Positions 36,656-52,467 of a DNA stretch of 52,550 nt are shown piece by piece. The stretch comes from Myxococcales bacterium (GTDB lineage Bacteria; Myxococcota_A; Polyangia; JAHFDS01), in the NCBI GenBank assembly GCA_023248855.1, contig JAHFDS010000012.1, forward strand, positions 1-52,550, in the 5' to 3' direction. Within the stretch, counting starts at the first letter, position 1. Each line of letters begins with the position of its first letter. The notes under the pieces were generated by a model that ran no database searches, was not told where the DNA came from, and worked only from the letters and a program-made list of their open reading frames with translations. Position numbers and translations under genes: made by a program.

Positions 36656-38415
36656 AGAGCCTCCTCGGCACCCTCGGCCGATGGCTCGGCGAACGCCCCG
36701 ACGTCGACGGCGCGCTCGCCGCCCTCGGACCGCCGGGTCTCCAGAAGGGCTGGCAGACGACGCTGCCGCAGGGTCAGCCGGTGCATCCGGTGCGCAGCCT
36801 GCAGCACGACCCGTACGCGCTCGTCGCATCGATGGGCTACAAGGACCGTCGCTTCAGCCTGAGCTACGACGTCCTCCGGCGCATCTCGCGGCAGCTCACG
36901 GTGGTCGCCGCGATCCTGCAGCGACGGATCAGCCAGGTGGCGGCCTTCTCGGCGCCCTTCCGGCTCACGAAGTCGCTCGGCTTCGAGATCAAGCACCGCG
37001 ACCCCGAGCACCAGACGACGCGCTCCGAGAAGCTCCTCATCAAGGAGCTCGAGCACTTCATCGCCCGCTGCGGCAAGCGCGAGGCCATCACGGAGATCAC
37101 GCCGGGAGCCTGGGAGGACTTCGACACGTTCCTGCGCAAGTTCGTCCGCGACTCGCTCATCTTCGACCAGGCCGCGTTCGAGCTCGTCCCCGACCACGCC
37201 GGCCGCCCGTGCGCGTTCCTCGCGATCGATGCCTCGACCATCCGCCTCGCGGTCACCGACGAGGACCTCGCCCGTGGCGGCCTCGGCTCCGACCCGCGCG
37301 CGATCGAGGCCGCGCGTCGCGCGATGGAGAGCCCGCTCCTCGGCCCGAGCGGCCGGGCACGCCAGCTCCCGCCGCCCGAGCACATCGACTACGTGCAGGT
37401 CTTCCAGGGCCAGATCGTGAGCACCTACGCGAAGGAGGAGCTCGCCTTCTGCATCCGGAACCCGCGCACGGACCTGCACGTCAACGGCTACGGCTTCTCC
37501 GAGCTCGAGCAGCTCGTCCTGACGGTGACCTCGCTCCTCTGGGCCGAGGACTACAACCGCAACTTCTTCAAGAACGGGTCGATACCCGAGGGCATCTTGA
37601 ACTTTCGCACCGACACGCCCGACCCCGAGAGCCTCGAAGCCTTCAAGACCTACTGGACCGCGCAGATGACGGGCGTGGAGAACGCCTGGCGGATGCCCAT
37701 GTTTCAAAGCGAGGGGCTCGAGTACATCAATCTCCAGCAGTCGAACCGGGAAATGGAATTCCAGCAGTGGGTCGAGTACCTCCTCAAGCTGGCGACCGCC
37801 CTCTACGGCATGGACCCGTCCGAGATCAACTTCGACATCTCGCGCGCGAGCACCTCGCAGCCGCTCTTCGACTCGCCCGCCGAGCACCGCCTCGACGACT
37901 CGAAGGAGAACGGCCTGCGCCCGCTGCTCCGCTTCATCGCGCGCATGATCAATCGCCACGTCCTCTCGCGCATCGACGACCGCTTCCACTTCGACTTCGT
38001 CGGCCTCGACGAGCTCTCCGAGCCCGAGAAGATGCAGATGCGCACGCAGGAGATCACGACCTACAAGACCATCGACGAGGTCCGCGCCGAGTGCGATCTG
38101 CCCGCCCTGCCCGACGGCTCCGGGCGGATCGTCCTGAACCCCGTGTGGGCCCAGTTCGCCCAGATGCGCCTGCAAGCGGCACAGCAGGCGCAGCAGGCGC
38201 AGCAGGCGCAGCAGCAACCGGGCCAGCAGGGCGGGCCGCCAGGGGCGCCCGCGCCTTCATCGCCCCCAGGGCTCACCGCGCCTCCCGCCGATGAGCCCGC
38301 CCCGGGCGCCGATCCATCCGAGCCTGCCGCCGCCAACGACCCGCCGCCCGACGACGCGTTCCCGCCCGACGGCGACCGGCGCCCGTCGCAACCGCGGAGC
38401 CCGGTGAGGTCCTGA
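36652..38415 (+). CDS. Phage portal protein
   Basis: Ring-forming portal through which DNA enters and leaves the capsid. The family is recognisable from the long aligned core: YVQVFQGQIVSTYAKEELAF, then NPRTDLHVNGYGFSELEQLV near 275-300, WAEDYNRNFFKNGSIPEGIL near 310, and YGMDPSEINF near 390, the sequence pattern of SPP1/HK97-like portals. About 510-587 is a Gln-rich then Pro/Asp-rich tail (a QAQQ run) that is probably disordered. The GTG start overlaps the previous stop. The lipoprotein protease gene begins in the stop (TGATG). Confidence 0.9.
   Translation: MKSLLGTLGRWLGERPDVDGALAALGPPGLQKGWQTTLPQGQPVHPVRSLQHDPYALVASMGYKDRRFSLSYDVLRRISRQLTVVAAILQRRISQVAAFSAPFRLTKSLGFEIKHRDPEHQTTRSEKLLIKELEHFIARCGKREAITEITPGAWEDFDTFLRKFVRDSLIFDQAAFELVPDHAGRPCAFLAIDASTIRLAVTDEDLARGGLGSDPRAIEAARRAMESPLLGPSGRARQLPPPEHIDYVQVFQGQIVSTYAKEELAFCIRNPRTDLHVNGYGFSELEQLVLTVTSLLWAEDYNRNFFKNGSIPEGILNFRTDTPDPESLEAFKTYWTAQMTGVENAWRMPMFQSEGLEYINLQQSNREMEFQQWVEYLLKLATALYGMDPSEINFDISRASTSQPLFDSPAEHRLDDSKENGLRPLLRFIARMINRHVLSRIDDRFHFDFVGLDELSEPEKMQMRTQEITTYKTIDEVRAECDLPALPDGSGRIVLNPVWAQFAQMRLQAAQQAQQAQQAQQQPGQQGGPPGAPAPSSPPGLTAPPADEPAPGADPSEPAAANDPPPDDAFPPDGDRRPSQPRSPVRS
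38182..38208 (+). repeat. Three 9 bp tandem repeats in the portal gene
   Basis: Three perfect copies of CAGCAGGCG encode the QQA repeats of the portal tail, followed by further CAG/CAA codons. Slippage here would change the tail length by multiples of three residues without breaking the frame. Confidence 0.8.
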
Positions 38416-39107
38416 TGACCACCCCCGCCCGTGCAGGAGCCGCCCCGGCGTTCATCGCAGCGCTCGCCGCCGTCGCGATTGCCAGCTGCGCAACCGTCGG
38501 CCCCTCCGGTGCGACCAGCCTCTATCGGCGGATCGCTCGCTCGGCCGTGATCGTCGAGGCCGAGCACAGCACCGGCTCCGGCACCGTGATCGCCAGCGAA
38601 CCCGGCGTCCTCCTCGTCCTCACGGCCCATCACGTCGTCGCCGCCGGCCCGAAGGCGCTGCGCATCGTCCTCGCTGATCCGTCCCTGTCGCCCGACGCAA
38701 ACGCCCCCGCCGTCATCGTGGCCGTGGACGCCGATCACGACCTCGCCCTCCTGCTCGCCGAGACCTCGATCTCCCGCCCACCCCTGCCCATCGCCCGGCA
38801 CGAGCCGGCCCTCTACGAGCCCCTCTACTCCGTCGCCGCACCCCTGGGCCTCGGCGGCACCGCATCGCCGGCGCTCCTGTCCTCGAAGGCGATCCGCCAC
38901 GGCGAGTCCGACCTCTGGGAGATCACCGGCTTCACCTTCTTCGGCAGCTCCGGCGGCACCCTCGCGAACGCCCAGGGTGAGCTCGTGGCCGTCCCGATCC
39001 GAGTCGCGTCGATGGGCACGTTCCCCGTCCCCGACGTCGGCTTCTGCGTCCCCCTGCCCGCCATCCGCCAGTTCCTCGCCCGCACCGTCCCGGAGCTCGA
39101 CCTGTGA
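38415..39107 (+). CDS. Lipoprotein trypsin-like serine protease
   Basis: Serine protease of the S1 (trypsin/HtrA-like) fold with a lipoprotein signal: the hydrophobic segment FIAALAAVAIASC ends at lipobox Cys25. The catalytic triad is visible as His73 in LTAHHVV, Asp109 in DADHDLALL and Ser179 in FGSSGGTL. The 230 residues leave no PDZ domain. It starts inside the portal stop codon. A protease next to a portal would normally be the prohead protease, which is cytoplasmic and of another family; this one looks exported. Confidence 0.82.
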   Translation: MTTPARAGAAPAFIAALAAVAIASCATVGPSGATSLYRRIARSAVIVEAEHSTGSGTVIASEPGVLLVLTAHHVVAAGPKALRIVLADPSLSPDANAPAVIVAVDADHDLALLLAETSISRPPLPIARHEPALYEPLYSVAAPLGLGGTASPALLSSKAIRHGESDLWEITGFTFFGSSGGTLANAQGELVAVPIRVASMGTFPVPDVGFCVPLPAIRQFLARTVPELDL

Positions 39108-39409: not shown

Positions 39410-40396
39410 ATGGCGACCGCGGACCAGGTCAAGGCGCTCATCCGTTGTCACGCGGAGGGTGACAACACGCGCTTCTACGCGATCGCGATGCAGGTCGCAG
39501 CGCAGGCCGCACGCGCGGGGCACGGCAGGTTTGCCCAGGAGCTCCGCGAGCTCGTCGACCAGATGAAGGCGCGCGGCAAGGCGCTCGATGCGGGGCGGGG
39601 ACCGGGTGTGGTTCCGCTTGCCCAGCCCCGTGGCGAGCTGACAGGGCTCCTCACCGTCGGCTATCCGAAGACCCGCATCGCAGACATGGCGCTCGAGGAT
39701 CCCCTTCGCACAAGACTTGAGCGCGCCCTGACGGAGCAGCGACAGCGCGAACGCCTCCGCGAGCACGGCTTCTCTCCGATGAGGAAGCTCCTGCTCGTGG
39801 GTCCACCAGGGACCGGCAAGACCATGACCGCGTCCGCACTCTCGGCCGAGCTCGGACTTCCCCTCTTTGGCATCCAGCTCCACGGCCTCATCACGAAGTA
39901 CATGGGCGAGACCGCGAGCAAGCTTCGCGTGGTGTTCGACGCCGTCCAGTCGACGCGAGGCGTGTACCTGTTCGACGAGTTCGATGCTCTCGGTGGCGAG
40001 CGGGGCAGCAAGAACGACGTCGGTGAGATCCGTCGCGTGCTCAACTCGTTCCTACAGTTTCTTGAGCAAGACGAATCCAACAGCCTCGTGCTGTGTGCCA
40101 CGAACCACGTTGGATTGCTGGATCGTGCTCTGTTCCGCCGTTTCGATGCCGTTCTCCAATACGAACTGCCCACCCCGGACATCGCGACCCGCGTGATGAA
40201 GGGTCGGCTGGCGTTGCTCGACACCACGGGCATCGACTGGGAGGCCACGTCCAGCTTGGCGAAAGGCCTCAGCCACGCCGAGGTCGCTCTGGCCTGCGAG
40301 CAGGCTGCCAAGAACGCGATCCTCAAGCATTCCACTGTGCTCCACGACTCCGATCTGGCACTCGCGATCGAAGACCGGCGTGGCACGCACCTGTAG
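39410..40396 (+). CDS. ietA: IetA-like AAA ATPase of the IetAS defence pair
   Basis: AAA-family ATPase that acts with a subtilisin-like protease in the IetAS anti-phage system. Residues 1-100 are a helical N-terminal region. The ATPase core has Walker A GPPGTGKT (131-138), Walker B LFDEFDALGG (Asp189, Glu190), a sensor-like LVLCATN near 227-232 and RALFRRFD with Arg243/Arg244 as finger residues. The ATG at 39410 has AGGGGAAAG upstream. Gene order and a short 22 nt gap to the S8 protease gene match IetAS. The trigger and protease target are not known from sequence. Confidence 0.87.
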   Translation: MATADQVKALIRCHAEGDNTRFYAIAMQVAAQAARAGHGRFAQELRELVDQMKARGKALDAGRGPGVVPLAQPRGELTGLLTVGYPKTRIADMALEDPLRTRLERALTEQRQRERLREHGFSPMRKLLLVGPPGTGKTMTASALSAELGLPLFGIQLHGLITKYMGETASKLRVVFDAVQSTRGVYLFDEFDALGGERGSKNDVGEIRRVLNSFLQFLEQDESNSLVLCATNHVGLLDRALFRRFDAVLQYELPTPDIATRVMKGRLALLDTTGIDWEATSSLAKGLSHAEVALACEQAAKNAILKHSTVLHDSDLALAIEDRRGTHL

Positions 40397-40418
40397 GCGG
40401 GCCTTGGAGCGCTGACCG

Positions 40419-42950
40419 GTGCCTGCTCCTCGCAACCGAAAGCACATCATCGTTCCGGGCGGCGCGACGGCGGAGTCGTACCGACCTCACCAGCGGAAGA
40501 TGAAGCTCCGCATCGCTCCTCCCCCAACGAGTCGGCCCGCGCACGGCCGCGCACTGAAGAGGTCCTTCGAGGCTGCCATCAGCGAGGCGCATCGCCGCCG
40601 CGCCGATGCGGGCATCCAGGTGCATGGTGCCGAGCCCGGCCTCTACGTTCAGTTCGAGAGCCAGCCTGGCGTGCCCCTCGCCCTCTGGTCGCTGGAAGAC
40701 TCGCGCAAGGGCATCGAGCTCGTTGCCGTCACGCACGCGCAGACCGCTGAAGTGCCGCCACGACCCGTTCAGCGGGCGACCGTGTTTGTCCCGGACGGGA
40801 AGGTGAAGCACTTCCTCTCTCGGTTCGAGGCCTACGCGAAGACCGCCCCCAAGTCGAAGGGCGAGCAACGCCACGAACCGATGCTGGATCCCCTCGGCGC
40901 GTTGCGCCTCGCGACTCTGCGCGGCCTCTGGACGGACACGACCGAGGGCTATCCCAACGACGACGAATCCATCTGGTGGGAGATCTGGCTACGCAAGCAG
41001 GACGGCAACGAGCTCTCCCGCCTGATGGAGTTCGCCACGCACAGGGAGATCGCCGTGGCACCTCGTCGTCTCCAGTTCGACGATCGCATCGTGACGCTGG
41101 CACGCGCGACCCCAGTGCAACTGTCGGCATCCATCGACGTGCTCAACGACGTGGCGGAGGTGCGCCGCGCCAAGGAAGCCGCCACGTTCTTCGTGCGGAT
41201 GGCACCTCACGAGCAAGCCGACTTGGTCAAGGATCTGCTCAAGCGGACGAGCCCGCCTCCGCCTGGATCTCCTGCCGTGTGCGTTCTCGACACCGGCGTA
41301 TCGCGCGGTCACCCGCTGCTTGCGGCGTCCCTCCACGAAAGCGACTGCCACACCTGTGAGCCAGCGTGGGGGAGCCACGACCACGACGGGCATGGCACCG
41401 AGATGGCCGGGCTGGCCCTCTACAGCGACCTTGCACCTCTGCTCAAAGGCATGGCGCCGGTCGAGCTGCGTCACGGCCTCGAGTCCGTGAAGATCCTGCC
41501 GCCGGATGGCGAGCCCCCGAATCCGCCCGAGCTGTACGGCGCGATCACTGCCGAGGCTACGAGTCGCGTCGAGATCCAGGCGCCCAGCAGACGGCGCTGC
41601 TTTTCGATGGCCGTTACCGCGACCGACCAGAGGGATCGCGGCCAGCCCACCTCTTGGTCGGCTGCGGTGGACGCGCTGGCGGCCGGCCGCGCCTTCGATT
41701 CGGGCGCGCAGGGGCTCGTCTATCTCGATGATGGCAGGGACCCACAGCGCAGGCTGTTCTTGATCAGTGCGGGCAACATCGACTCGGATGCCTTGCAGGT
41801 GGCGCACCTCGACCGGAGCGACGCGGACGGCGTCCACGACCCCGCCCAAGCGTGGAACGCACTGACGGTGGGAGCGTTCACGGAGAAGACGCTCATTCAG
41901 GATCCGGCGTGGGAGGGCTGGCAGCCTGTGGCTCCGGCGGGCGATCTCTCACCCTGGAGCACCACGGGGGTGACATTCGTCGAAGCGTGGCCGATCAAGC
42001 CAGACGTCGTGTTCGAGGGCGGCAACGTCGTGAAGAACGGCAGCGACGAAGTGGACTTTCCATGTCCGGACCTGTGCCTCCTGTCGACGAACTCCGAGCC
42101 TGCGGCGAACTCCTTCGCCTTGACGTGGGCCACCAGCGCCGCCACCGCGCAGGCCGCGCGGGCGGCCGCGATCATCTCTGCCGAGTACCCGACGCTCTGG
42201 CCCGAGGCCGTCCGCGCGCTCCTCGTCCACTCTGCCGAGTGGACTCCGCGGATGCTGGCGCACCTACGCGGCGCGAGCCTTAAGCGCGATCGCGCGCGAC
42301 TCGTCCAGCGGTACGGCTTCGGCGTACCGCACCTCGATCGCTCTCTGCGCAGCGCCACCGACGCCCTGACACTGATCGCTCAGGACACGATCCACCCGTT
42401 CACCGAAGGCAAGATGCGCGAGATGCACTTCTTCGAGTTGCCGTGGCCCCGGGAAGTGCTCCAGGGCCTTGGCGACACACCGGTCCGGTTGCGGGTGACC
42501 CTGTCGTACTTCATCGAGCCGAACCCGGGCCGCCGCGGCTGGAAGAAGCGACATCAGTACGCTTCCCATCTGCTCCGGTTCGACGTGAAGGGCCCGACCG
42601 AGTCCCTGGACGAATTCCGCAAGCGCCTCAATCAGACGGCGCTCGAGGATGACGAGGAGAAGCCCGCCGCGGGTGCGGACTCTTCCGAATGGTACCTTGG
42701 CCCGCTCGCCCGCAACCGTGGATCGATCCACTCGGACATCCTGCAGGGGTTCGCCGCCGACCTTGCCGAGCGCGGAGCGATCGGCATCTACCCCGTGAGC
42801 GGCTGGTGGAAGGCGCAGCCCAAGCGGGACCGGAGCGAGCAGGGGGCCCGGTACGCGCTCGTCGTCTCGATCGAGACCCCGGGCGTGGAGACGGACATCT
42901 GGACCCCCGTTTCCCAGCAGGTCGGCCTGCCGATCGAGGTCGAAACGTAG
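40419..42950 (+). CDS. ietS: IetS-like subtilisin (S8) protease of the IetAS defence pair
   Basis: Large (843 residues) subtilase-family protease. Residues 1-280 form an N-terminal domain without a signal peptide, so the enzyme should be cytoplasmic. The triad is complete: Asp291 in VLDTGVSRGHPLL, His325 in DGHGTEMAG, Ser573 in WATSAATAQAA, with oxyanion Asn453 in ISAGNI. The C-terminal 250 residues form a beta-rich accessory domain (RLRVTLSYFIEPN). The GTG start lies just after a TTGGAG site. Together with the AAA ATPase upstream this is the IetAS layout; the ATPase presumably controls the protease. Confidence 0.87.
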   Translation: MPAPRNRKHIIVPGGATAESYRPHQRKMKLRIAPPPTSRPAHGRALKRSFEAAISEAHRRRADAGIQVHGAEPGLYVQFESQPGVPLALWSLEDSRKGIELVAVTHAQTAEVPPRPVQRATVFVPDGKVKHFLSRFEAYAKTAPKSKGEQRHEPMLDPLGALRLATLRGLWTDTTEGYPNDDESIWWEIWLRKQDGNELSRLMEFATHREIAVAPRRLQFDDRIVTLARATPVQLSASIDVLNDVAEVRRAKEAATFFVRMAPHEQADLVKDLLKRTSPPPPGSPAVCVLDTGVSRGHPLLAASLHESDCHTCEPAWGSHDHDGHGTEMAGLALYSDLAPLLKGMAPVELRHGLESVKILPPDGEPPNPPELYGAITAEATSRVEIQAPSRRRCFSMAVTATDQRDRGQPTSWSAAVDALAAGRAFDSGAQGLVYLDDGRDPQRRLFLISAGNIDSDALQVAHLDRSDADGVHDPAQAWNALTVGAFTEKTLIQDPAWEGWQPVAPAGDLSPWSTTGVTFVEAWPIKPDVVFEGGNVVKNGSDEVDFPCPDLCLLSTNSEPAANSFALTWATSAATAQAARAAAIISAEYPTLWPEAVRALLVHSAEWTPRMLAHLRGASLKRDRARLVQRYGFGVPHLDRSLRSATDALTLIAQDTIHPFTEGKMREMHFFELPWPREVLQGLGDTPVRLRVTLSYFIEPNPGRRGWKKRHQYASHLLRFDVKGPTESLDEFRKRLNQTALEDDEEKPAAGADSSEWYLGPLARNRGSIHSDILQGFAADLAERGAIGIYPVSGWWKAQPKRDRSEQGARYALVVSIETPGVETDIWTPVSQQVGLPIEVET

Positions 42951-43176: not shown

Positions 43177-43210
43177 TATGATGTCCGATGGGGCCGCATC
43201 GTCCCCATCG
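43177..43210 (+). promoter_or_regulatory. Promoter -10 box and leader hairpin before the nuclease-helicase cassette
   Basis: TATGAT at 43177-43182 is a good -10 box. Right after it, CGATGGGG (43186-43193) and CCCCATCG (43203-43210) form a perfect 8 bp inverted repeat with a 9 nt loop, ending just before the GTGGAGG ribosome binding site of the gene at 43224. It could be an operator at the start site or a hairpin that blocks translation. It sits in the only long gap (273 nt) of the defence island's + strand, so the cassette probably has its own promoter. Confidence 0.45.
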
Positions 43211-43223
43211 GTGGAGGGCGTGC

Positions 43224-44396
43224 ATGAGCCGCAGCAATCCGTCTCCAGGCGAGATCAAGGCGAAGCTCGAGTCGCTGCGAGGGGACTCGACCCCGCGCCC
43301 CGTCACCGCGCGCGTGGTCGCGAGCCAGAGCGCCAACACGCGGTGTGGCCTCCTGACCCTGGCCAACGCGTCCGGGGTGAGGTTCGACCGGATGCTCCAG
43401 CACACCGAGTTCGCGGTGCCGTACGGGCAGGCCAGGTCGGCCATCACGCGGGGCAATCAATTCGAGGGCAAGCTCAAGGCCGGAGGGTACGCCGAGCTGT
43501 TCCAGGTGCTTCGCGAGGCATTCGGGATCGGTGACCAGCCCCTGACCGTGAGGAACTTGAAGGAGGAGGTCCCGCACGACCGCGCCGACCCGTATGGATC
43601 GCTCGGCAAGCGGGCCGACCTCACGCGGGAGATCATCAAGGAGTCTCTGACCGCCAAGGTGGAGTCGCCGCATCTGATCGACGGTGCCATTCTCCGACTC
43701 GACCTCGGCGGACAGGTGGGCTACCTGGAGACGGACGCCCTTGCACTGCGGCTCAAGGGCAAGCTCCGCGTCGGCGAGATCAAGTCGTTCCCGGCGATCG
43801 ATGGGCGGGCAGATCCTGCGAAGGTGGGCTCGGCCGCCGACCAGTCTGCCGTCTACGTTCTCGCCCTCGAGAACCTGGTGCGGGAGCTCGGGGGCGACCC
43901 AGAGCAGCAGGTGTCGAGCCGAATCCTCCTCATCACACCCCGAAACACCGGAATGCGCCCAACCGTCCACGAGATCGACGTCAGCCGGCGGGTGAGCCAT
44001 CACCGGCGCCAGCTGGAGGGCGCGCCCGACCTCAATGAGCTCCTGGCAGCCGTGCCCTCGGCGGTGTCGTTCCCGAGCGAGGACGGCAAGGGCAACCCCG
44101 TCGTCGAGCTCGGCAAGATGGCCGCGGCGACCGGTACCTGCTACTCGCCCACGTGCCTCTCGTTTTGCGGCCTCAGCCGCTGGTGCCGGCATCGCGCGAG
44201 CGAGGTATCTGACCCGACCCGGATCGGCCCCACGCTCGTGCGCCTGTTGCCGGGAGTCGCATCCCTCGAGCGAGCGCGTGAGCTAGCTGGCGGTGCCGCC
44301 CCGACTGCCGGGGAAGAAGCGGCAGCCGAGCCCCTTCGCCGGGCGGAACGCCTCCTCAGGTCCATTCCCATGCCGCCCCGAAAGCAGGTCGCATGA
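43224..44396 (+). CDS. Cas4-like Fe-S nuclease, first gene of uncharacterised defence-type cassette
   Basis: Probable PD-(D/E)XK nuclease of the Cas4/AddB type. The active-site pattern is E169-T-D171 in VGYLETDALAL and E185-I-K187 in VGEIKSF, with Gln207 and Tyr211 downstream as the usual QxxxY motif. Cys41, and Cys306, Cys311, Cys315 and Cys321 (TCYSPTC, FCGLSRWC) suggest a Cas4-style Fe-S cluster, with one cysteine to spare. RGNQFE at 76-81 is in the place of the GxxxHE motif. The ATG at 43224 has a GTGGAGG site. It is coupled by a 4 nt overlap to the next gene and is unlike the other Cas4-like nuclease at 16.9 kb in length and sequence. The role is inferred from the domains. Confidence 0.8.
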   Translation: MSRSNPSPGEIKAKLESLRGDSTPRPVTARVVASQSANTRCGLLTLANASGVRFDRMLQHTEFAVPYGQARSAITRGNQFEGKLKAGGYAELFQVLREAFGIGDQPLTVRNLKEEVPHDRADPYGSLGKRADLTREIIKESLTAKVESPHLIDGAILRLDLGGQVGYLETDALALRLKGKLRVGEIKSFPAIDGRADPAKVGSAADQSAVYVLALENLVRELGGDPEQQVSSRILLITPRNTGMRPTVHEIDVSRRVSHHRRQLEGAPDLNELLAAVPSAVSFPSEDGKGNPVVELGKMAAATGTCYSPTCLSFCGLSRWCRHRASEVSDPTRIGPTLVRLLPGVASLERARELAGGAAPTAGEEAAAEPLRRAERLLRSIPMPPRKQVA

Positions 44397-45865
44397 CGAC
44401 GCAGCTCGACGTCCTGCTCGCGGAGCGAGCGCTGGCCACTGGGCGCGCGCAGCTCAGGGCAACGGTTCGCCACGTGCACCTGTCGAAGCGCCCCATGTTC
44501 CTGGTGGCGTTCCAGCCGGCCGCCGAGCCGTTCTCCGCCCTCGGCGTCGCCCTGGGGCAGAGCGCCAAGGACGTGATCAAGGCAGTCGTCATCGAGCCCC
44601 GCAACAGGACGCTCTTGTTTCGCGCCATGCTCCCCGTTGCCCAGCGGTTCAACGCCTGGATGCGCAGCTTCGCCGGCGAGCGAGTCCCCATCGGCCGGAA
44701 CGATGACGACGATCGCGAGCGGACGGTGGACGCGCCGCAGCTCATCGTCGCGAACAGCGGGATGGTCAACCTGCTCGAGCACTGGGGCCGGCGATTCGCC
44801 TATCTGCAGACCTCCGGTGCCGAACCGGCCGATCCCGCGCTCGTCGAGTTCGGGCGTCACCTGCAGTTCCTGGCAGGCCACGCCAGCATGCCGGGCCAGG
44901 CGATCGTCGTCCCCGCGACAGCGCTCCTACGCCGTCACTTCCGCACCGGACAGTCGGACCTCGAGGACGAGAACCTCGCAGCCCTGGACGCGTGGGTCGC
45001 CCCTCCGGCCGGCACCACAGGCCAGGCGGCATCTCTGAACGTCGAAGACATCGCCGTCGGCCCGCTACTCCAGCCCGATGACGACAACGAGGCACACGGA
45101 CTCATTGCCAACTTCGGAAAGGAGCGCAAGGGCAGTACGGACGAGGCGCTCGTGCGGCGCCTCGAGCCAGCGTTGCACGCGCTCATGGCGCCGCATCTCA
45201 ATCGCGCGTTCGGCTTGGTTTCGCGTGCTCCGAAGCACGTTGCTGAGCTGCCGGAAGGCTCATCGGTCGCGGGCAGATGGGTCGATGACTGCATCGCCTA
45301 CACCGGGCACGTCGATTGGACGAGCAGCGGCGGATTCCGACGCGCGCGCGACAGCGCGCAGCGCGCGGCAAGGCTTCGCCTTCGGCTCGAGAAGGCACAG
45401 GGCCGCCTCGAGGCAGAGGAGGCCGCTGACGATCCACTGACGATGGCCGGCTACGAGCTCATCGGGAAGGCCATTCATGGCCGCATCGTGTCGGTCGATC
45501 CGAGCCACAAGGACGGCCCGCGCAAGATCCGCCCCTTGATCGTGCTCGAGACCGAGCACCCCAGCCTCATTCCGTCTGCCAAGGCACTCTGGTGGAGCGA
45601 GCGCCCCGGACAGCTCCGCGCGGAAGTCGTGTCCACGGCGAGTCACGGCAAGGGATCACGCGTGACGCTCAAGGTAACGGCCGGCATGCGAGGCGACCTC
45701 CCGGTCAAGAGCAAGACAGCGTGGTTCTGCCAGCTGAGCGCCAGCTCGGGCGGCCCGAGCCTTCCCATTCCCAAGGAGGTCCCCTGGACTCACAAGGCCC
45801 AGTTCTCGAGTACGCCAGCCACGATCGAGACTGGGCCGAGTGATCGCTGGGAGGAGACGCCGTAA
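44393..45865 (+). CDS. Unknown protein of the nuclease-helicase cassette (490 aa)
   Basis: No recognisable family. It has no signal peptide or membrane segment. The N-terminal 100 residues mix strands and helices (RAQLRATVRHVHLSKRPMFL, AKDVIKAVVIEPRNRTLL). The middle is helical with Asp-rich loops (RNDDDDRERT, LLQPDDDNEA). Residues about 305-365 (SGGFRRARDSAQRAARLRLRLEKAQG) look like a coiled coil, and 370-470 read as a beta barrel (GRIVSVDP, RAEVVSTASHGKGSRVTLKVTAG), possibly OB-like. The start overlaps the nuclease stop (ATGA), and the stop shares a base with the helicase start (TAATG). Tight coupling between a nuclease and a helicase suggests a shared complex. No function is claimed. Confidence 0.75.
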   Translation: MTTQLDVLLAERALATGRAQLRATVRHVHLSKRPMFLVAFQPAAEPFSALGVALGQSAKDVIKAVVIEPRNRTLLFRAMLPVAQRFNAWMRSFAGERVPIGRNDDDDRERTVDAPQLIVANSGMVNLLEHWGRRFAYLQTSGAEPADPALVEFGRHLQFLAGHASMPGQAIVVPATALLRRHFRTGQSDLEDENLAALDAWVAPPAGTTGQAASLNVEDIAVGPLLQPDDDNEAHGLIANFGKERKGSTDEALVRRLEPALHALMAPHLNRAFGLVSRAPKHVAELPEGSSVAGRWVDDCIAYTGHVDWTSSGGFRRARDSAQRAARLRLRLEKAQGRLEAEEAADDPLTMAGYELIGKAIHGRIVSVDPSHKDGPRKIRPLIVLETEHPSLIPSAKALWWSERPGQLRAEVVSTASHGKGSRVTLKVTAGMRGDLPVKSKTAWFCQLSASSGGPSLPIPKEVPWTHKAQFSSTPATIETGPSDRWEETP

Positions 45866-47235
45866 TGCCCGACCAGACGGTGCTCGAGGAAGCCAGGCAG
45901 GTGACCGACGCGGCCACGAATGACTTCATCGCCGGCACGCACCGCGCACTCGTTGTTCGCGCGGGCGCTGGTGCTGGCAAAAGCGGACTCGTCGTGCAGG
46001 CGACCTGCGCCGCGGCCGCTGCCGGCATGCGAGTCGTCGTCGCAGCCCCCACCAACGCACAGGTGGCCGACCTGGTCTGCCGAATCGCTCCAGCCGCGAA
46101 AAAGGTCCAGATCGCCTACCTGCACAAGCAGCCGGGTGAGAGCTTTCAGGTAGACCCGCGCGTGACGGCACTGTCCAACGTGACGGCGACGCATCACCCC
46201 GTCATGACCGCGAGCGCCCCGATCGTCATCAGCACGATGGACAAGCTGGCGTTCTCTGCCGCGAAGATGGGCAGCTTCGATCGGATGATTCTCGATGAGG
46301 CCTACCAGGCGGACTCCACGCGCTACATGTGCGTGGCTCCGCTGGCGGAGAGGCACCTCCTCGTGGGCGACAGCGGACAGCTCGATCCGTTCTCGACGGT
46401 CGACTGTTCTCGATGGCGCGGGTTGTCGGAGGATCCCCTGCTGACGGCGATCGGCGTGCTCGAAAAGAACCACCGGGACTCCACCGGCGCGCACGCACTC
46501 CCGCTGACGCGGCGGCTTCCTGCAAGCGCGGTACCGGTGGTCCAGCCGGCGTTTTACGGGCGGGGGCTGCCTTTCCGCGCGGCGTCCCTTCCTCCAGATC
46601 GCGAGATGAGGCTTGCCCCCTCGCCGACCAAGCGGGATCGTCTGCAGCGAGCTGCGCATGCGGCCCTCGATGGGGCTGCAATGCACGGATGGGCTCACCT
46701 CGAGCTCGCCGACAAGCCCGTCCTGACAGCGGACCCGGAAGCCGTCGAGATCATCACCCACTTGGTGGCCGGGCTATTCGCGCGCAGCCCGAAGGTCCGC
46801 TGCGAGAAGACAGCGTCGAGCAAGCGCCCCTGGACCGAGCTCGGGCACAGGCAGGTCGCCGTGGTGGTGAGCCACAACGATCAGAAGGATCTCGTTCGCG
46901 CCCGCTTCGAGGCCGAAGGGCTGGACGATGTGCTCGTCGACACGGCCAACCGCGCCCAGGGCCTGGAGTTCGAGGTGGTGATCGCCTGGCATCCCCTGGC
47001 GGGGCTGGTGGACCTCGACGAGTTTCACCTCGCCCCTGGCCGAGCGTGCGTGATGCTGACGCGGCACCGCCAAGCGTGCATCGTGGTCGGTCGGGCCGGT
47101 GATCGCGACGCGCTCCGCTATCAGCCCCCGACGCCGCCTGCGTTCCTGGGGGAAGACAAGGATCCCCTGCTCGATGGCTGGGAGGCGCACCGGCATGTCT
47201 TCGACGCGCTCACGCCGCACGTGATCAGCGCATGA
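45865..47235 (+). CDS. Compact SF1 helicase, third gene of the cassette
   Basis: Superfamily 1 DNA or RNA helicase. Motif I GAGAGKS (34-40), Ia VVVAAPTNAQVADL, motif II LDEAYQ (Asp144, Glu145), motif III VGDSGQLDPF near 167-176, motif IV KNHRD at 201-205, motif V DTANRAQGLEFEVVIAW (359-375) and motif VI MLTRHRQA with Arg400/Arg402. At 456 residues it lacks large 1B/2B insertions, so accessory domains may be supplied by the partner protein upstream. The AQG motif V with LEFEVVI resembles Upf1/Dna2-type helicases. It ends convergent to the Res gene, 51 nt away. Confidence 0.85.
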   Translation: MPDQTVLEEARQVTDAATNDFIAGTHRALVVRAGAGAGKSGLVVQATCAAAAAGMRVVVAAPTNAQVADLVCRIAPAAKKVQIAYLHKQPGESFQVDPRVTALSNVTATHHPVMTASAPIVISTMDKLAFSAAKMGSFDRMILDEAYQADSTRYMCVAPLAERHLLVGDSGQLDPFSTVDCSRWRGLSEDPLLTAIGVLEKNHRDSTGAHALPLTRRLPASAVPVVQPAFYGRGLPFRAASLPPDREMRLAPSPTKRDRLQRAAHAALDGAAMHGWAHLELADKPVLTADPEAVEIITHLVAGLFARSPKVRCEKTASSKRPWTELGHRQVAVVVSHNDQKDLVRARFEAEGLDDVLVDTANRAQGLEFEVVIAWHPLAGLVDLDEFHLAPGRACVMLTRHRQACIVVGRAGDRDALRYQPPTPPAFLGEDKDPLLDGWEAHRHVFDALTPHVISA

Positions 47236-47286: not shown

Positions 47287-49908
47287 TCACCGTGCTCCTT
47301 TGGGGTCGTAGTCGGCGGCGATGCTGGACCGATAGATGTCTACGGGGCTCTCCTTGGCAACCAGGATCTCCTCGCGCACGGTGTCGTAGTTCATGTTGAC
47401 GACCTTCATCCGGCCGTCGACGTCTGCCACGGCCTCGATGCGGTGGAACGCCTCGCCGTACGTCCTGGCGAACGTCGCCAGGGCCTTCAGCTTCATCAGC
47501 GCGTCGGGGAGGTGGTGTCCGTGCGGGTCGACAATCGAGGCGACGATCTTGCCGCCGACCTCGTGGAAGAACACGAAGTCGGGGTGCATGGATCGCCAGT
47601 TGGCAGTGATGTCGTCACGGTAGGCGATGGCGAGTGAGTCGACTGCAGCCCGCGAGGGGTTGCGGTACCAGCCGCGCACGCTCGGCCGCGCGAGCTCGGC
47701 GAGCACAATCTGGCGCTCCCAGCTGTTGAGTGACGTGAGCGGGAACTGGCCGTCTTCGTCGGACATCAGGTGCAGTGGGGCCAGCGGCGCGGCAGCGATC
47801 TGCCCGTTCTCCTCGACCACGGAAAACCCCTCAATGCGCGTTCGCGGCGGGCGCAGAACCCCCTTCTGCGGGACGGTCGACATGGCCCGAATGTCCTCGT
47901 ACTCCTGCTGGCGAACGTCGGACAGTCCCTTCCTCGCGACGCGGTGCTCGGCGAAGAGGCGATCGGTCAGCGTGATCGCCTCTTCGTCGACCTTGGCGCG
48001 CACCTCCTTGACGGTGGCCAGCGCCGCTACCCGCACGTACGCCTCGCGCAGGCCATCGTCGTCGTCGGCCTCGTCGTCCGGGCCGGCGAGGTGGTTGACG
48101 TAGGACTGCGCGATGTCGGCGCCGAAGGCCTTCTTGGCCGCCTCGAAGCCGGTGCGGATGGCGCGGTCGTCGGCCCGCTCGACGAACTCGGCATAGCTCA
48201 ACCCCGTCTTGCCGAAGCGCCCCGCAATCTGCTTGATGTGGACGTCCCACACTTCTTGGATGGCCGCGGCGAGTTTGTCGGAGTAGCGCGTTGCGTAGGC
48301 ATCGAGGATGCGGTGCAGCTCCTCTTTGACCTTGCTGAGCGCCCCGGGCGACACCGCGTCGGCCGCCAGCGCCTGCGCCAGCGCCACCAGCCGCTTCACC
48401 GGTCGGGCACCGCGCTGCGGCAGCGTCTCCGTCGGCAGCGCCTCCCACAACTCCCACACCTCGCGCGGCACGTTCGGGTTGGGACGAAGCTCCTTGCCGC
48501 CAACCACCAGCTTTTTCTCGCCGCCCGGCATGGACTCCAGATCGCCGGTGAGGAACCGGACCACCTGCACAGCGGTGGTGCGGTCGAAGAACGGAAGGAT
48601 GCAGTCGACGGCGTTGAGTCGTTCGTCACCGGGGATGCGGCGGGCGAGCGGATTGCGGACCATCCGACCGAGCATCTGCGTGATGTGGGTATTGTCCCTC
48701 GCCGGCCGGAACGACACGAGCACCTCGGCGCGGGGGCAGTCCCAGCCGGTCGAGATGGCATCCTTGGCGACGAGGACGCGCACCTGCGACTCGTCCTGCA
48801 CACGCTGCGGCTCGATCCATTCGACTGCCCACGCGCCGAACTTCTGGGTGGAGTGATCGCCGAGCACATGCCGCACCGACGACTTGAGCAGGTCGCGATA
48901 CTCGGCGAAGATCGTGTCGAGCGCGATCCCAACGTCGCTTGGGTCGGGCGTGTTCGGTGTCTGCAACACCAAGAGCGGCTGGACGGTCTCGGCTAGCCCC
49001 TGCGAGCGGGCGTAGTCAGCCCATCGATCGGTGGAGTCCTTCAGCTTGCGAGCGGCGCGGCGCACGAGGACGGAGTCGAAGTTGCCGGCCTCGTCGGGGA
49101 TCTCGAGGACGAGGGTGTCCTTGACCAGGCCGGACTCCTGCACTCGGACCGGGTCGACGGTGACAGGCAACAGAGCGCGGCGGTTCTTGGTAGCCTCGGC
49201 CTCCTGCATCGCCGTATCAAAATGGGCGATGGTGGCCGATATCCCCCACACGATCGGGATGGGTGGACGCTCCTTCGTGCCGTTGACGAGCCGACGCACG
49301 ATGGTCGGCTTGTCGGAAGTCGCCTTGGCGTTGAAGCCGCGGTGTGCCTCATCCAGCACGAGGTACAGAGTAAGATCGTCGGCCCCGATGGTATTGGCGA
49401 GCGTCTGCCAAATGGTCCAGCCCTGCATATCGGGCGCGGCCGCCGCAATGCCGGGGAGGTGCCCTTGCCCGTCGAGCGCGGTCTCGACGGGCCCACGCGT
49501 CAGCAGAGAGCTCTTGGTGAGTTTCTGGGTGTTCAGGAAGTACACCTTGCCGGCATCGAGACGCGGCTTGGCGAACGGTGGTTCGATGTGCACGAGATTC
49601 GAATAGGTGAATTTCTCGGAGGCCTGCCGAAGGCGGTTGAACGTCTGCTTGTTCAGGTTCGGGTCGTCCGAGAACCACAGCACGACCGCACCCGGGTCTG
49701 GCTCGAAGTCGAAGGTATCGTTGCCCCAGAAGAGCGCCTCGATCGCCGCCGCCGCCATCACCGTCTTGCCCGCGCCAGTGGTGGCCGTGAGCGAGAAGGA
49801 CGAGATCTCGGGCTTGTCTGGGTTCTTGAAGTTCTTCCGGGCGAGCTTGAGATTGGCGAGGACGTCATTGACGGCCTGTTCCTGGTAGTCCTTTAGGGTA
49901 AACTTCAC
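47287..49908 (-). CDS. Type III-like restriction subunit (SF2 helicase, Res)
   Basis: Helicase/translocase subunit of a type III-like restriction system. N-terminal motifs: Q-type KDYQEQAV, Walker A TTGAGKT (43-49), DEAH (186-189), SAT in WGISATIAH, and motif VI QMLGRMVRNP near 415. The 873-residue length and the C-terminal HPDFVFFHEVGGK, then ASIVDPHGHH, follow the Res endonuclease plan. The expected (D/E)xK there reads DPH, so the cleavage residue may be missing or replaced. The GTG start overlaps the Mod stop by 4 nt. Mod and Res are transcribed in that order, opposite to the cassette. Confidence 0.85.
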   Translation of the reverse strand: MKFTLKDYQEQAVNDVLANLKLARKNFKNPDKPEISSFSLTATTGAGKTVMAAAAIEALFWGNDTFDFEPDPGAVVLWFSDDPNLNKQTFNRLRQASEKFTYSNLVHIEPPFAKPRLDAGKVYFLNTQKLTKSSLLTRGPVETALDGQGHLPGIAAAAPDMQGWTIWQTLANTIGADDLTLYLVLDEAHRGFNAKATSDKPTIVRRLVNGTKERPPIPIVWGISATIAHFDTAMQEAEATKNRRALLPVTVDPVRVQESGLVKDTLVLEIPDEAGNFDSVLVRRAARKLKDSTDRWADYARSQGLAETVQPLLVLQTPNTPDPSDVGIALDTIFAEYRDLLKSSVRHVLGDHSTQKFGAWAVEWIEPQRVQDESQVRVLVAKDAISTGWDCPRAEVLVSFRPARDNTHITQMLGRMVRNPLARRIPGDERLNAVDCILPFFDRTTAVQVVRFLTGDLESMPGGEKKLVVGGKELRPNPNVPREVWELWEALPTETLPQRGARPVKRLVALAQALAADAVSPGALSKVKEELHRILDAYATRYSDKLAAAIQEVWDVHIKQIAGRFGKTGLSYAEFVERADDRAIRTGFEAAKKAFGADIAQSYVNHLAGPDDEADDDDGLREAYVRVAALATVKEVRAKVDEEAITLTDRLFAEHRVARKGLSDVRQQEYEDIRAMSTVPQKGVLRPPRTRIEGFSVVEENGQIAAAPLAPLHLMSDEDGQFPLTSLNSWERQIVLAELARPSVRGWYRNPSRAAVDSLAIAYRDDITANWRSMHPDFVFFHEVGGKIVASIVDPHGHHLPDALMKLKALATFARTYGEAFHRIEAVADVDGRMKVVNMNYDTVREEILVAKESPVDIYRSSIAADYDPKGAR

Positions 49909-51896
49909 AGGGATCCCCGTCCGGACTCGATCTCGAAGTTGCGCAGGTATGCCTCGTACAAGCGAACGGGCTCGACGTGGTCGGGCAGCTCCTGCGCGAC
50001 GGACTCGAAGAGTCGGTCCTCGTCAGTGACGACGTAGGCGACCGCGACGTTGTCGTTGATAGCGATGGCCTTGAGGAAGTCTTCGGTGTGGTCCAGGTCG
50101 GCAAGTACGCCATAGGCGTCGGCGACATCCCACCCCTTCGAAATGTTGTCGACGCGGCGTCCGCGCGCGCCGGCGCGGATCCAGAGCAACGACGCGATCT
50201 TGGCGAACTCGCGGTTGCTCGCCACGCGCAGTGGCGCCTCGTAGGACAGGGTGAAGAACTCGACGTTTTCCTCAAAACCGTCAGACATGGGGAATTCGTC
50301 GGTGAACTTGTAGTCGCCCTTGATCGGGTCGCCGTCGGGCGTCTTTCCCGTGATTGCGGCAAGAATCCGTGGATTGGTGATGCGTTCGCAGATCCCCCAG
50401 CGCTCCCAGTCGGGATCGCCCGGGCGAAGCCCCTTCTTGCGGAGCGCGGCTTGCTCGTCTGCGGACACCTCGTTGTTCGTGACCGAGATCGACACCCGGT
50501 GGCCACCATCCTGCTTGTTCAGTCGCATCACCGCGTGGGCCGTCGTGCCGGAACCAGCAAAGAAATCAATGACTACCGCCTGCGGCTTTTCTGCTACGAA
50601 GAAGCGAAGGGAGTCTTCGACCGCGAACAGTGACTTAGGGAACGGGAACTTCCGGCCCGGAAGGATCTTGTTCAGAAGCCCTGCGCCACCTGTACTTGCA
50701 TCGTGAGAGGTCTTGTTCCACACGGTTCGGGGCGTGGATTCTGTGGCCAACGTGCTGTTCTGCAGGTCGAGAATCACCACTCCATGCTCATCCTTCCCCA
50801 GAGTCGCGACGAGACCGTCGGCCACGGCCTTCGCCTTCTTCGCCTTCATGTACTGAATGCGCCACTGGCCGGTCTTGTCATTGAAGCTGCCGACGCGCAC
50901 TGTTCCCTGCGCGCGGGCGGCCTTGAGGCCGGGGGGCGAGAGCTGCCAGAAGCCTTCCGTGCCGTCATCTTTGATGGGCCAGACTGCGGTTAGCCCGGGA
51001 GGTGGCTCCACCGAGTTTCGATCGGCTGAGAGTGGGAGAGGGTCTCCAGAGCTCACTATCCGACCAGTACCCGCGCCCGCGTCTATGAAGATCGGATAGA
51101 ACTGTTTGGGCCGCTGCGACCTCACCACGCCGATCCCTCGGCGCACCATTCCCTCCCACAGGTCGGACTCCCTAATGCCCACCGCCTCCTCGGCAACGAC
51201 TCCCAGCATGTTGTCGTTCGTCCGGACGAGCTCGGCGTTGCCTATGAAGAGGAAATATAAGTATTCGTCTACGCGGGAGAACTCCTTCGTTCGCGACGTA
51301 CCCCCAGGCTTGATGACCGAGGAGATCATCTGGATCTTGGCGTCCGGGAACGTCTGCTCGAGCAGCAATCCGAGCCGCAGACACTCTTTCTCGTCGATCG
51401 TCACGATGAGAACGGAGTCGGCCGGGTTCAGCAGCTCCTTCGCGATGAGCAGGCGGCGCTCCATGAACGCGAGCCACTTCGAGTGACGGTAGAGGTCGTC
51501 GTCTTCGACGTAGTCGTTGTTGTATTTCCAGTCCCTCGCGCCGGTGTTGTAGGGCGGGTCGATGTAGATGCAGTCGACCCTGCCGCGGTGCGTGAAGAGC
51601 AGGGTCTCGAGCGCGTGGAAGTTCTCGGCGTTGATGACAGTATGGAACGGCTTCTCGCCCCCGCGCTCTACCTTGCCCGTCGGGACCAGACCCGGATAGA
51701 TCGCGTCGCGGAATTCGGCCACCACGACCAGTTCGTCCAGCGCAGCGGTGCTGGCCTTCAGATTCGGAGGGGCTTCGCCCGCATCGGCCACCAGCTCCAC
51801 TGAATCCGGAACGACGAGAGGCTCCAACGTGGCCGTGCTCGCGGAACGCTCGATCCCGATGACCCGCCAGAGTTTCTCGTCCGACTTTTTGGGCAC
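49905..51896 (-). CDS. Type III-like DNA methyltransferase (Mod), main part
   Basis: Adenine or cytosine-N4 methyltransferase of a type III-like restriction pair. The catalytic IDPPYNTG motif is at residues 112-119, just after ENFHALETL, and the AdoMet-binding FFAGSGTTAHAV motif lies near 435-450. The first 85 residues contain an incomplete beta domain (LWRVIGIERSASTATLEP). The GTG start at 51896 lies directly after a TAG in the same frame, and the missing N-terminal part is encoded upstream (51897-52100). The product of this part alone would lack the usual N-terminal segment. Confidence 0.87.
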   Translation of the reverse strand: MPKKSDEKLWRVIGIERSASTATLEPLVVPDSVELVADAGEAPPNLKASTAALDELVVVAEFRDAIYPGLVPTGKVERGGEKPFHTVINAENFHALETLLFTHRGRVDCIYIDPPYNTGARDWKYNNDYVEDDDLYRHSKWLAFMERRLLIAKELLNPADSVLIVTIDEKECLRLGLLLEQTFPDAKIQMISSVIKPGGTSRTKEFSRVDEYLYFLFIGNAELVRTNDNMLGVVAEEAVGIRESDLWEGMVRRGIGVVRSQRPKQFYPIFIDAGAGTGRIVSSGDPLPLSADRNSVEPPPGLTAVWPIKDDGTEGFWQLSPPGLKAARAQGTVRVGSFNDKTGQWRIQYMKAKKAKAVADGLVATLGKDEHGVVILDLQNSTLATESTPRTVWNKTSHDASTGGAGLLNKILPGRKFPFPKSLFAVEDSLRFFVAEKPQAVVIDFFAGSGTTAHAVMRLNKQDGGHRVSISVTNNEVSADEQAALRKKGLRPGDPDWERWGICERITNPRILAAITGKTPDGDPIKGDYKFTDEFPMSDGFEENVEFFTLSYEAPLRVASNREFAKIASLLWIRAGARGRRVDNISKGWDVADAYGVLADLDHTEDFLKAIAINDNVAVAYVVTDEDRLFESVAQELPDHVEPVRLYEAYLRNFEIESGRGSL

Positions 51897-52143: not shown

Positions 52144-52467
52144 ATGACAACGTACACCGCCGCCCAGGCCGAGGCGATCGCGTGCCTCGACCAGCCGCTG
52201 CAGATCATCGCCTGCGCGGGGTCGGGCAAGACACAAGTCATCTCGCAGCGGATTGCGGCGATCCTGGCCCGGCCCGGGGTCAAGCCGCGCAACGTCGTCG
52301 CGTTCACGTTTACCGAAAAGGCCGCGGCCGAGCTGAAAGAGCGCGTCCTGTCGATGGTGGCTCGTGAGCTCGGCACGGTCACCGGGCTGGCCGAGATGTA
52401 CGTCGGGACGATGCACGGCTACTGCCTCGACCATCCCCGTTCGGATAACGCGGCCAAGACCGCGTGA
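52144..52467 (+). pseudogene. Truncated UvrD/Rep-type helicase
   Basis: The N-terminal part of an SF1A helicase: TAAQAEAIACLDQPLQIIACAGSGKT (Q motif and Walker A, given here in part), then NVVAFTFTEKAAAELKERV (motif Ia) and EMYVGTMHGYCLD (motif Ic). After about 97 residues the match stops and 10 unrelated residues precede a stop at 52467. A full enzyme has 600-1100 residues, so motifs II to VI are missing. The break is at about 52433. It may be a deletion or insertion scar in a former Gabija-like or restriction-associated helicase gene, or a recombination edge of the island. Confidence 0.7.

Follow-up and report, generated by a model that had tools for sequence, protein, structure and literature searches.

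A probable split Dna2-like helicase-nuclease encoded by three coupled genes, with a core lineage in Streptomyces and several accessory, defence-linked lineages

What do three coupled genes for a Cas4-like nuclease, a protein of no recognised family and a short helicase do when they lie between defence genes? Such a trio, designated A, B and C, is present in a 52,550-nucleotide stretch of DNA from a Myxococcales bacterium (contig JAHFDS010000012.1 of assembly GCA_023248855.1), the whole of which is referred to below as the window, and an earlier note made from its letters alone had put the trio forward as a candidate undescribed defence system. Based on profile searches, structural models, gene neighbourhoods and trees, the trio is a real, conserved and apparently undescribed three-gene machine, for which split Dna2-like helicase-nuclease is the better term; one of its lineages is core, and several others are accessory and linked to defence. 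With a probability of about 60%, A, B and C form one three-subunit helicase-nuclease that works like DNA2 and the bacterial single-chain enzyme Bad, and the accessory copies have been recruited against foreign DNA.

The genes are tightly coupled, with the A/B junction reading gcATGAcg at 44393 and the B/C junction cgTAATGcc at 45863, and the open reading frames and the ATGA and TAATG overlaps are those that had been described. An in-frame ATG is also found at 43188, and the relatives of A agree with a start at 43224. Because relatives of A, B and C with approximately 30–44% identity occur in the same gene order in other genera and phyla, the three are not chance reading frames of a GC-rich genome. 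Promoter and terminator scans of the locus gave nothing useful.

The description of C as a compact superfamily 1 (SF1) helicase is upheld: AAA_30, AAA_11 and AAA_12 were matched above gathering thresholds, all SF1 motifs are present, and the best Protein Data Bank (PDB) matches of its profile are DNA2 (5eax/5eaw/5ean, E 1.4e-12), followed by SMUBP2 and UPF1. Since only about 35 residues precede motif I, C is without the N-terminal 1B domain of its superfamily. A looks like a Cas4/Dna2-type RecB nuclease with a predicted iron–sulfur (Fe–S) cluster, which agrees with the Cas4-like nuclease first proposed. In an alignment of seven close relatives, its invariant residues are C41, G77-N78-x-F80-E81, E169-x-D171, E185-x-K187, Q207-Y211 and C311-x3-C315-x5-C321, which include the RecB motifs and four cysteines, and the model (predicted local distance difference test score, pLDDT, 85.5) has as its best PDB fold Cas4 (4ic1, E 3e-4, match probability 0.99), with further matches to the Argonaute-associated Cas4 ACE1 (9iac), MGME1, EXO5, RecE and AdnA. 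The window copy of A alone matched no family in Pfam, NCBIfam or PADLOC, and PDDEXK_1 was weakly matched in 3 of 18 relatives. De novo repeat proteins among the PDB matches of the A profile were rejected as low-complexity, alanine-rich sequences. Nucleases of this kind have been termed “iron staple” (PMC7430649).

The 490-residue protein B has kept its status as an unrecognised family: it matched nothing in Pfam, NCBIfam or PADLOC and nothing in the PDB by profile, and a scan of 31 members against Pfam gave weak, scattered matches only. Its model is confident (pLDDT 85.3, predicted template modelling score 0.84) and consists of an alpha/beta domain, long helices at about 250–356 and a six-stranded barrel at about 360–446, followed by a conserved PWTH motif and a disordered tail. 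Weak, partial Foldseek matches of the N-terminal part to RNase H, NurA, PIWI and Spt6 (E ≥ 5e-4) suggest an RNase H-like domain, which is read as probably non-catalytic because no acidic residues stand at the usual RNase H catalytic places; conserved residues of B include R26-H27, P69-R70-x-R72 and R133. Near-full-length matches to Spt6, hexokinase and DnaK were rejected, apart from the common RNase H-like core, on account of root-mean-square deviations above 20 Å. The remaining matches, all weak, are to UPF1 (2xzo, probability 0.90, E 0.065), to HerA of SIR2-HerA (probability 0.94, E 0.058) and to reductase barrels, and they are placed on the C-terminal part by presumption, as the aligned range is absent from the output. 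Thus, the coiled coil and barrel proposed earlier are seen in the model as long helices and six strands, but the barrel appears nearer to UPF1-1B, HerA or reductase types, by these weak matches, than to the OB fold that had been named. From the model, the stalk and barrel are a plausible candidate stand-in for the 1B domain absent from C, an attractive assignment because the gene order A-B-C equals the order nuclease, 1B, helicase.

In a sample of 284 genomes from the phylum of the window, relatives of B were found in four other genomes, one of them by a weak 79-residue match only, and relatives also occur in three plasmid-collection records; with further complete trios in G213, G150 and G160, seven genomes of the phylum carry the trio. 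In G062 (L003/L091), B is split across two frames, either by a sequencing-error frame shift or as a decaying gene. A first scan of genome contigs with B alone gave no confirmed relative, and a scan with the helicase alignment succeeded, recovering at least 541 relatives. Of these, 80 loci were kept, all from Actinomycetota and mostly from Streptomyces; B is present in 78 and A in 73, every exception being cut by a contig end. The trio is complete in all relative loci long enough to show it except in G607, where A and B stand together and about 36 kb of the chromosome separates them from C. The recurrence of nuclease A and helicase C alongside B was thereby observed; the earlier note had named such recurrence in islands as support for a system. 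B was not found in viral contigs or phage records, nor was C in phage records.

The largest branch is a core operon of Streptomyces. B occurs in 115 of the 121 Streptomyces species sampled, about 11 of which have a second, divergent copy, and the fixed chromosomal locus has the order phosphatase, PAP2, A, B, C, a 124-aa gene, a Prim-Pol-like gene, a 477-aa gene and GGDEF/EAL. In the separate Actinomycetota sample, B was found in 13 of 297 genomes, several of which are Streptomyces genomes already counted. The view of the earlier note would have been refuted by homologues of B mainly outside islands and without the partners, and half of this was observed: they do stand mainly outside islands, yet with A and C. 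This pattern bears on a rival reading, in which the trio would be a helicase-nuclease of DNA repair or replication that plays no part in defence, and the copy in the window a repair module that moved and came to lie in an island by chance. Near-universal presence at a central locus beside PAP2, Prim-Pol-like and GGDEF/EAL genes, a helicase of DNA2 type and an intact set of catalytic residues in every core copy checked speak for it; on the other hand, the accessory copies are sporadic, lie on plasmids, at chromosome ends and in an integrative element, and repeatedly adjoin defence genes, so that this account is considered unlikely, at somewhat better than one chance in five. Among the copies at chromosome ends, those of L123 (G339 C1:21462 and C1:10654192) score identically and lie close to the two ends of one Streptomyces chromosome, which is what terminal inverted repeats would give.

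The accessory set is separate from the core lineage and forms several defence-linked lineages. In Actinomycetota, the accessory copies have a fourth gene upstream, D (about 255–290 aa), which has no Pfam match and is absent from both the core locus and the window. An SbcD-like gene is divergent from D in 10 of 23 accessory loci, nine of which also have an SbcC-like gene, and in five others of the 23 (L069, L116, L119, L120 and L122) a pPIWI-RE gene set takes the place of SbcCD, with PprDinG, PprRE and PprPDDEXK divergently beside D-A-B-C; these genes were identified by PADLOC on L069 and by homology at the other four. Beside other accessory loci are Wadjet I (3) or II (2), type IIG, DrmB and NERD-UvrD genes. 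Wadjet was rejected as an obligate partner, its genes being found in only 5 of the 23 loci. Outside this group of 23, a HEC-05-like gene lies near L090, and SbcC and SbcD lie near L176. Known partner genes are present near 17 of 23 accessory loci versus none of 49 core loci (Fisher P 7e-12, a value that overstates the case because the loci are related and the queries came from accessory loci, the zero among core loci still being informative). In L180 (1–8433), D-A-B-C occurs with a serine recombinase and a C5 methyltransferase on a predicted viral or integrative contig, so that gene D is not confined to Streptomyces and related loci. Genes of approximately 1050–1075 aa were also seen downstream of C in L118 (12445–15594), L119 (12235–15411) and L120 (3977–7201); that of L118 has no Pfam or PADLOC match, and the three did not cluster by BLAST.

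The three genes have been inherited together: the core, pPIWI-RE-linked and distant clades come out alike in the trees of A, of B and of C. The SbcCD-linked copies are a single clade in the A and B trees and fall into two in the C tree, and the window copy groups with that of G204, from the same phylum.

The flanks of the window trio are those reported earlier: on one side are IetA/IetS at 39410–42950 (PADLOC E 1.5e-67 and 1.7e-34), and on the other, at 47287–51896, is a convergent type III Res/Mod pair (REase_III E 3.6e-11; MTase_III E 1.1e-233). The argument for defence by association made from this placement stands in part, in that accessory copies recur beside defence genes, but islands are not the main setting of the family. 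The type III neighbours also raise the possibility that the trio is the cutting and unwinding arm of a methylation-controlled restriction system, in which the type III Mod would protect self and the trio would degrade unmodified DNA. The distant trio L125 likewise adjoins a type III restriction-modification system, together with a UvrD gene; a type I methyltransferase lies near L177, a type I restriction enzyme and a HEC-05-like gene near L178, and a type IIG gene near L117, the C5 methyltransferase of L180 being a further case, and the same proposal was made for Bad by its authors (PMC7430649). Against this, the type of methyltransferase varies by locus, the Mod of the window comes with a Res of its own, and near many copies no methyltransferase was identified; restriction of this kind is accordingly thought improbable.

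The nuclease site of A is damaged in all five pPIWI-RE-linked copies, either by E81H, E185L and K187R or by D171H, K187R and Y211S, while the four cysteines and the motifs of C are intact in all five. In the window copy, in 10 of 10 SbcCD-linked copies and in 10 of 10 core copies checked, the site is intact; some Streptosporangiaceae copies are also damaged. As catalysis is lost in the pPIWI-RE-linked copies and the cysteines and C motifs are kept, A may have a structural role beyond cutting, and within this one clade its cutting seems dispensable where pPIWI-RE supplies its own nucleases.

Further copies point to a B-C pair. A C-like helicase was found on 47 further actinobacterial plasmid records, and in the five that were read (L171–L175; pFiD188, pREL1, pJCM12272 and others, from Rhodococcus, Mycolicibacterium, Euzebya and Arthrobacter) a B-related protein is encoded directly upstream of C in four and divergently in one. 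The relation to B has a profile-profile E of 2.7e-7 for the five proteins together and of 7e-12 for the Euzebya member alone, and the A profile found nothing on these five records. Since the plasmid pairs are apparently without A, B belongs with C and A is separable; judged from gene content, B-C seems to be the core of the machine. The pairs often occur with MoxR and VWA genes, and pFiD188 also has a RAMP CRISPR-type gene nearby. That the family is a tool of mobile elements, serving plasmid or element maintenance, transfer or DNA processing and not host defence, would suit the megaplasmids of Rhodococcus and Mycobacterium, where some of the B-C pairs have MoxR and VWA genes next to them, and the element in which D-A-B-C accompanies a serine recombinase. 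However, the Streptomyces core copies sit on the chromosome and are vertically inherited, and several accessory copies lie among chromosomal defence systems, which makes such a role very improbable.

Coupling of the genes, their conservation and motifs, their shared inheritance, the partner associations and the decay of the nuclease beside pPIWI-RE are observed, and from these features we infer complex formation, polarity, substrate and cellular role as follows. C may act as an ATP-driven motor on single-stranded DNA and unwind it, probably 5′ to 3′ like other SF1B enzymes. B would be the obligate scaffold of the motor, its stalk and barrel standing in for the missing 1B domain of C, and nucleic acid could be gripped or guided by the RNase H-like domain of B. 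A may be an Fe–S nuclease fixed at the strand exit, where it could cut the displaced or threaded strand. The vertically inherited copy of Streptomyces probably carries out genome maintenance, and accessory copies, including that of the window, may have been turned to the processing or destruction of ends and flaps of foreign DNA, in concert with the neighbour that marks the target, be it restriction-modification, SbcCD, pPIWI-RE or Wadjet. The window copy is probably used against foreign DNA.

Several points weigh against a recruited three-subunit helicase-nuclease of this kind. Most relatives occupy the fixed Streptomyces locus among ordinary neighbours and no defence genes, and defence is therefore not the sole role of the family and may not have been its first. 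The contrast in partner genes is favoured by the drawing of partner queries from accessory loci, and the pPIWI-RE-linked copies are one clade, in which nuclease loss may represent one or two events. The proposal that B supplies accessory domains for the short helicase stays plausible, with plasmid B-C pairs apparently without A, whereas a profile-profile comparison of B with bacterial UPF1-like 1B domains was not significant (P 0.24). The RNase H identity of B is suggested by weak fold matches, B is set beside the central domain of Bad by position and description, and the trio is known from genes and models. A broader proposal, that the trio represents an undescribed class of modular DNA-destroying motor, in which a B-C core acquires or sheds the nuclease A, takes up D as a putative targeting gene and changes partners among SbcCD, pPIWI-RE, Wadjet and restriction-modification in defence islands while also serving as a near-universal core machine of Streptomyces, is tentative and more likely wrong than right.

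Positions of the trio and of its principal domains and motifs in the window
Feature	Position	Strand	Description
Gene A	43224..44396	+	390-aa Cas4/Dna2-type RecB-family nuclease, four Fe–S-type cysteines
A Cys41	43344..43346	+	First predicted Fe–S ligand; invariant in all copies covering the site, even those that have lost catalysis
A E169-x-D171 and E185-x-K187	43728..43784	+	Catalytic residues; damaged in every pPIWI-RE-linked copy, intact in the window copy and in core and SbcCD-linked copies
A C311-x3-C315-x5-C321	44154..44186	+	Other predicted Fe–S ligands; invariant in all copies examined
Gene B	44393..45865	+	490-aa middle protein; family not found in Pfam, NCBIfam or PADLOC
B N-terminal alpha/beta domain	44393..45007	+	Putative RNase H-like topology; strand order b-b-b-a-b-a in the model
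B helical stalk (about 228–356) and six-stranded barrel (about 358–446)	45074..45730	+	From the model; weak Foldseek matches
Gene C	45865..47235	+	456-aa compact SF1B (UPF1/DNA2-like) helicase core
C Walker A GAGK (residues 36–39)	45970..45981	+	Near-invariant; GSG-K in two distant copies
C Walker B DEAYQ (residues 144–148)	46294..46308	+	DEA in all aligned copies; DEAxQ in close relatives
C motif VI RHR (residues 400–402)	47062..47070	+	In all but one distant copy

Other features of the window lie beyond the trio. At 52144–52467, the N-terminus of a UvrD helicase (Pfam E 7e-26) is matched over approximately 96 residues before unrelated sequence follows, and the piece appears from its sequence to be a gene fragment or a frame-shifted copy; UvrD genes of this type are also near the trio in L125 and L069. 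A trypsin-like serine protease gene at 38415–39107 (Trypsin_2 E 1.4e-17), just upstream of IetAS, is possibly another protease-type defence gene. The source assembly (G000) has a reported contamination of 5.46% and 724 contigs, and the host of the window contig is not beyond doubt; the sister trio of G204, from the same phylum, gives mild support for the assigned host.

Through this trio, an operon that is near-universal in Streptomyces and apparently undescribed is connected with accessory copies that other bacteria carry in defence islands and on plasmids. Two questions become open to direct tests, namely the role of such enzymes in bacteria and whether a genome-maintenance motor could become a defence effector by partner exchange. 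Furthermore, the pPIWI-RE-linked copies, in all of which the nuclease is damaged, amount to a natural experiment already at hand.

Comparison with known systems agrees with the early view that the trio corresponds to none that has been named: family and PADLOC scans gave no system match, A and B matched no PADLOC model, and literature searches found no description of the trio, the work on Bad being the sole close one. A nuclease with a helicase is a common theme of Hachiman, Gabija, Mokosh and pPIWI-RE, but their defining subunits are absent from the trio. Hachiman was rejected because A, B and C have no match to Ham models or to DUF1837, the family of the HamA nuclease, and HamB is an SF2 enzyme while C is SF1; for Gabija, none of the three matched the OLD-type ATPase-TOPRIM GajA or the UvrD helicase GajB, and for Mokosh, C has a weak local match only to the SF1 helicase subunit MkoA (71 residues, E 4.7e-6), with none for A or B. 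The pPIWI protein, DinG helicase and REase of pPIWI-RE were not found among the scanned neighbours in the window; pPIWI-RE is a neighbour of five accessory relatives, not the trio itself. CRISPR-Cas4 was set aside because no Cas1 or Cas2 model matched among the eight window proteins scanned, arrays not being searched for.

Among helicase-nucleases, AddAB and AdnAB are SF1A UvrD-type motors with large fused subunits. The trio is similarly multi-subunit, the AddB nuclease is of the iron-staple kind and AdnA is among the fold matches of A, whereas C belongs to SF1B and nothing in them corresponds to B. The TM0106-family RecB-helicase fusions of Actinomycetota (TIGR03491) carry, in one chain with the RecB-type nuclease, a helicase matched by C (E 2.3e-5); in contrast to the trio, no B-like domain was detected in these fused proteins (P ≥ 0.097), and the match of A is without confidence (probability 3%). 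Eukaryotic DNA2, the best PDB profile match of C, shares with the trio a Cas4-like nuclease with predicted Fe–S cluster and an SF1B helicase, but it is a single chain and an essential replication and repair enzyme, in which a possible 1B barrel is all that could correspond to B.

Bad of Geobacillus stearothermophilus combines in one chain, in this order, a four-cysteine RecB-family nuclease, a conserved, unexplained central domain and an SF1B helicase with its Walker A at K815; it translocates 5′ to 3′, prefers single-strand–double-strand junctions and 5′ flaps, and adjoins a type III Mod-like methyltransferase, and a new kind of restriction was suggested by its authors (PMC7430649). Unlike Bad, the window trio and its relatives are encoded by three separate genes, and because they are not one chain, and the central domain of Bad is likened to B by description, the trio is said to work like Bad and DNA2 rather than to be such an enzyme. 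It shares with Bad the order of nuclease, middle part and helicase, the four-cysteine nuclease and, at the window, the type III Mod neighbour, and it may thereby offer a separate-subunit form of the unexplained middle part in bacterial DNA2-like enzymes.
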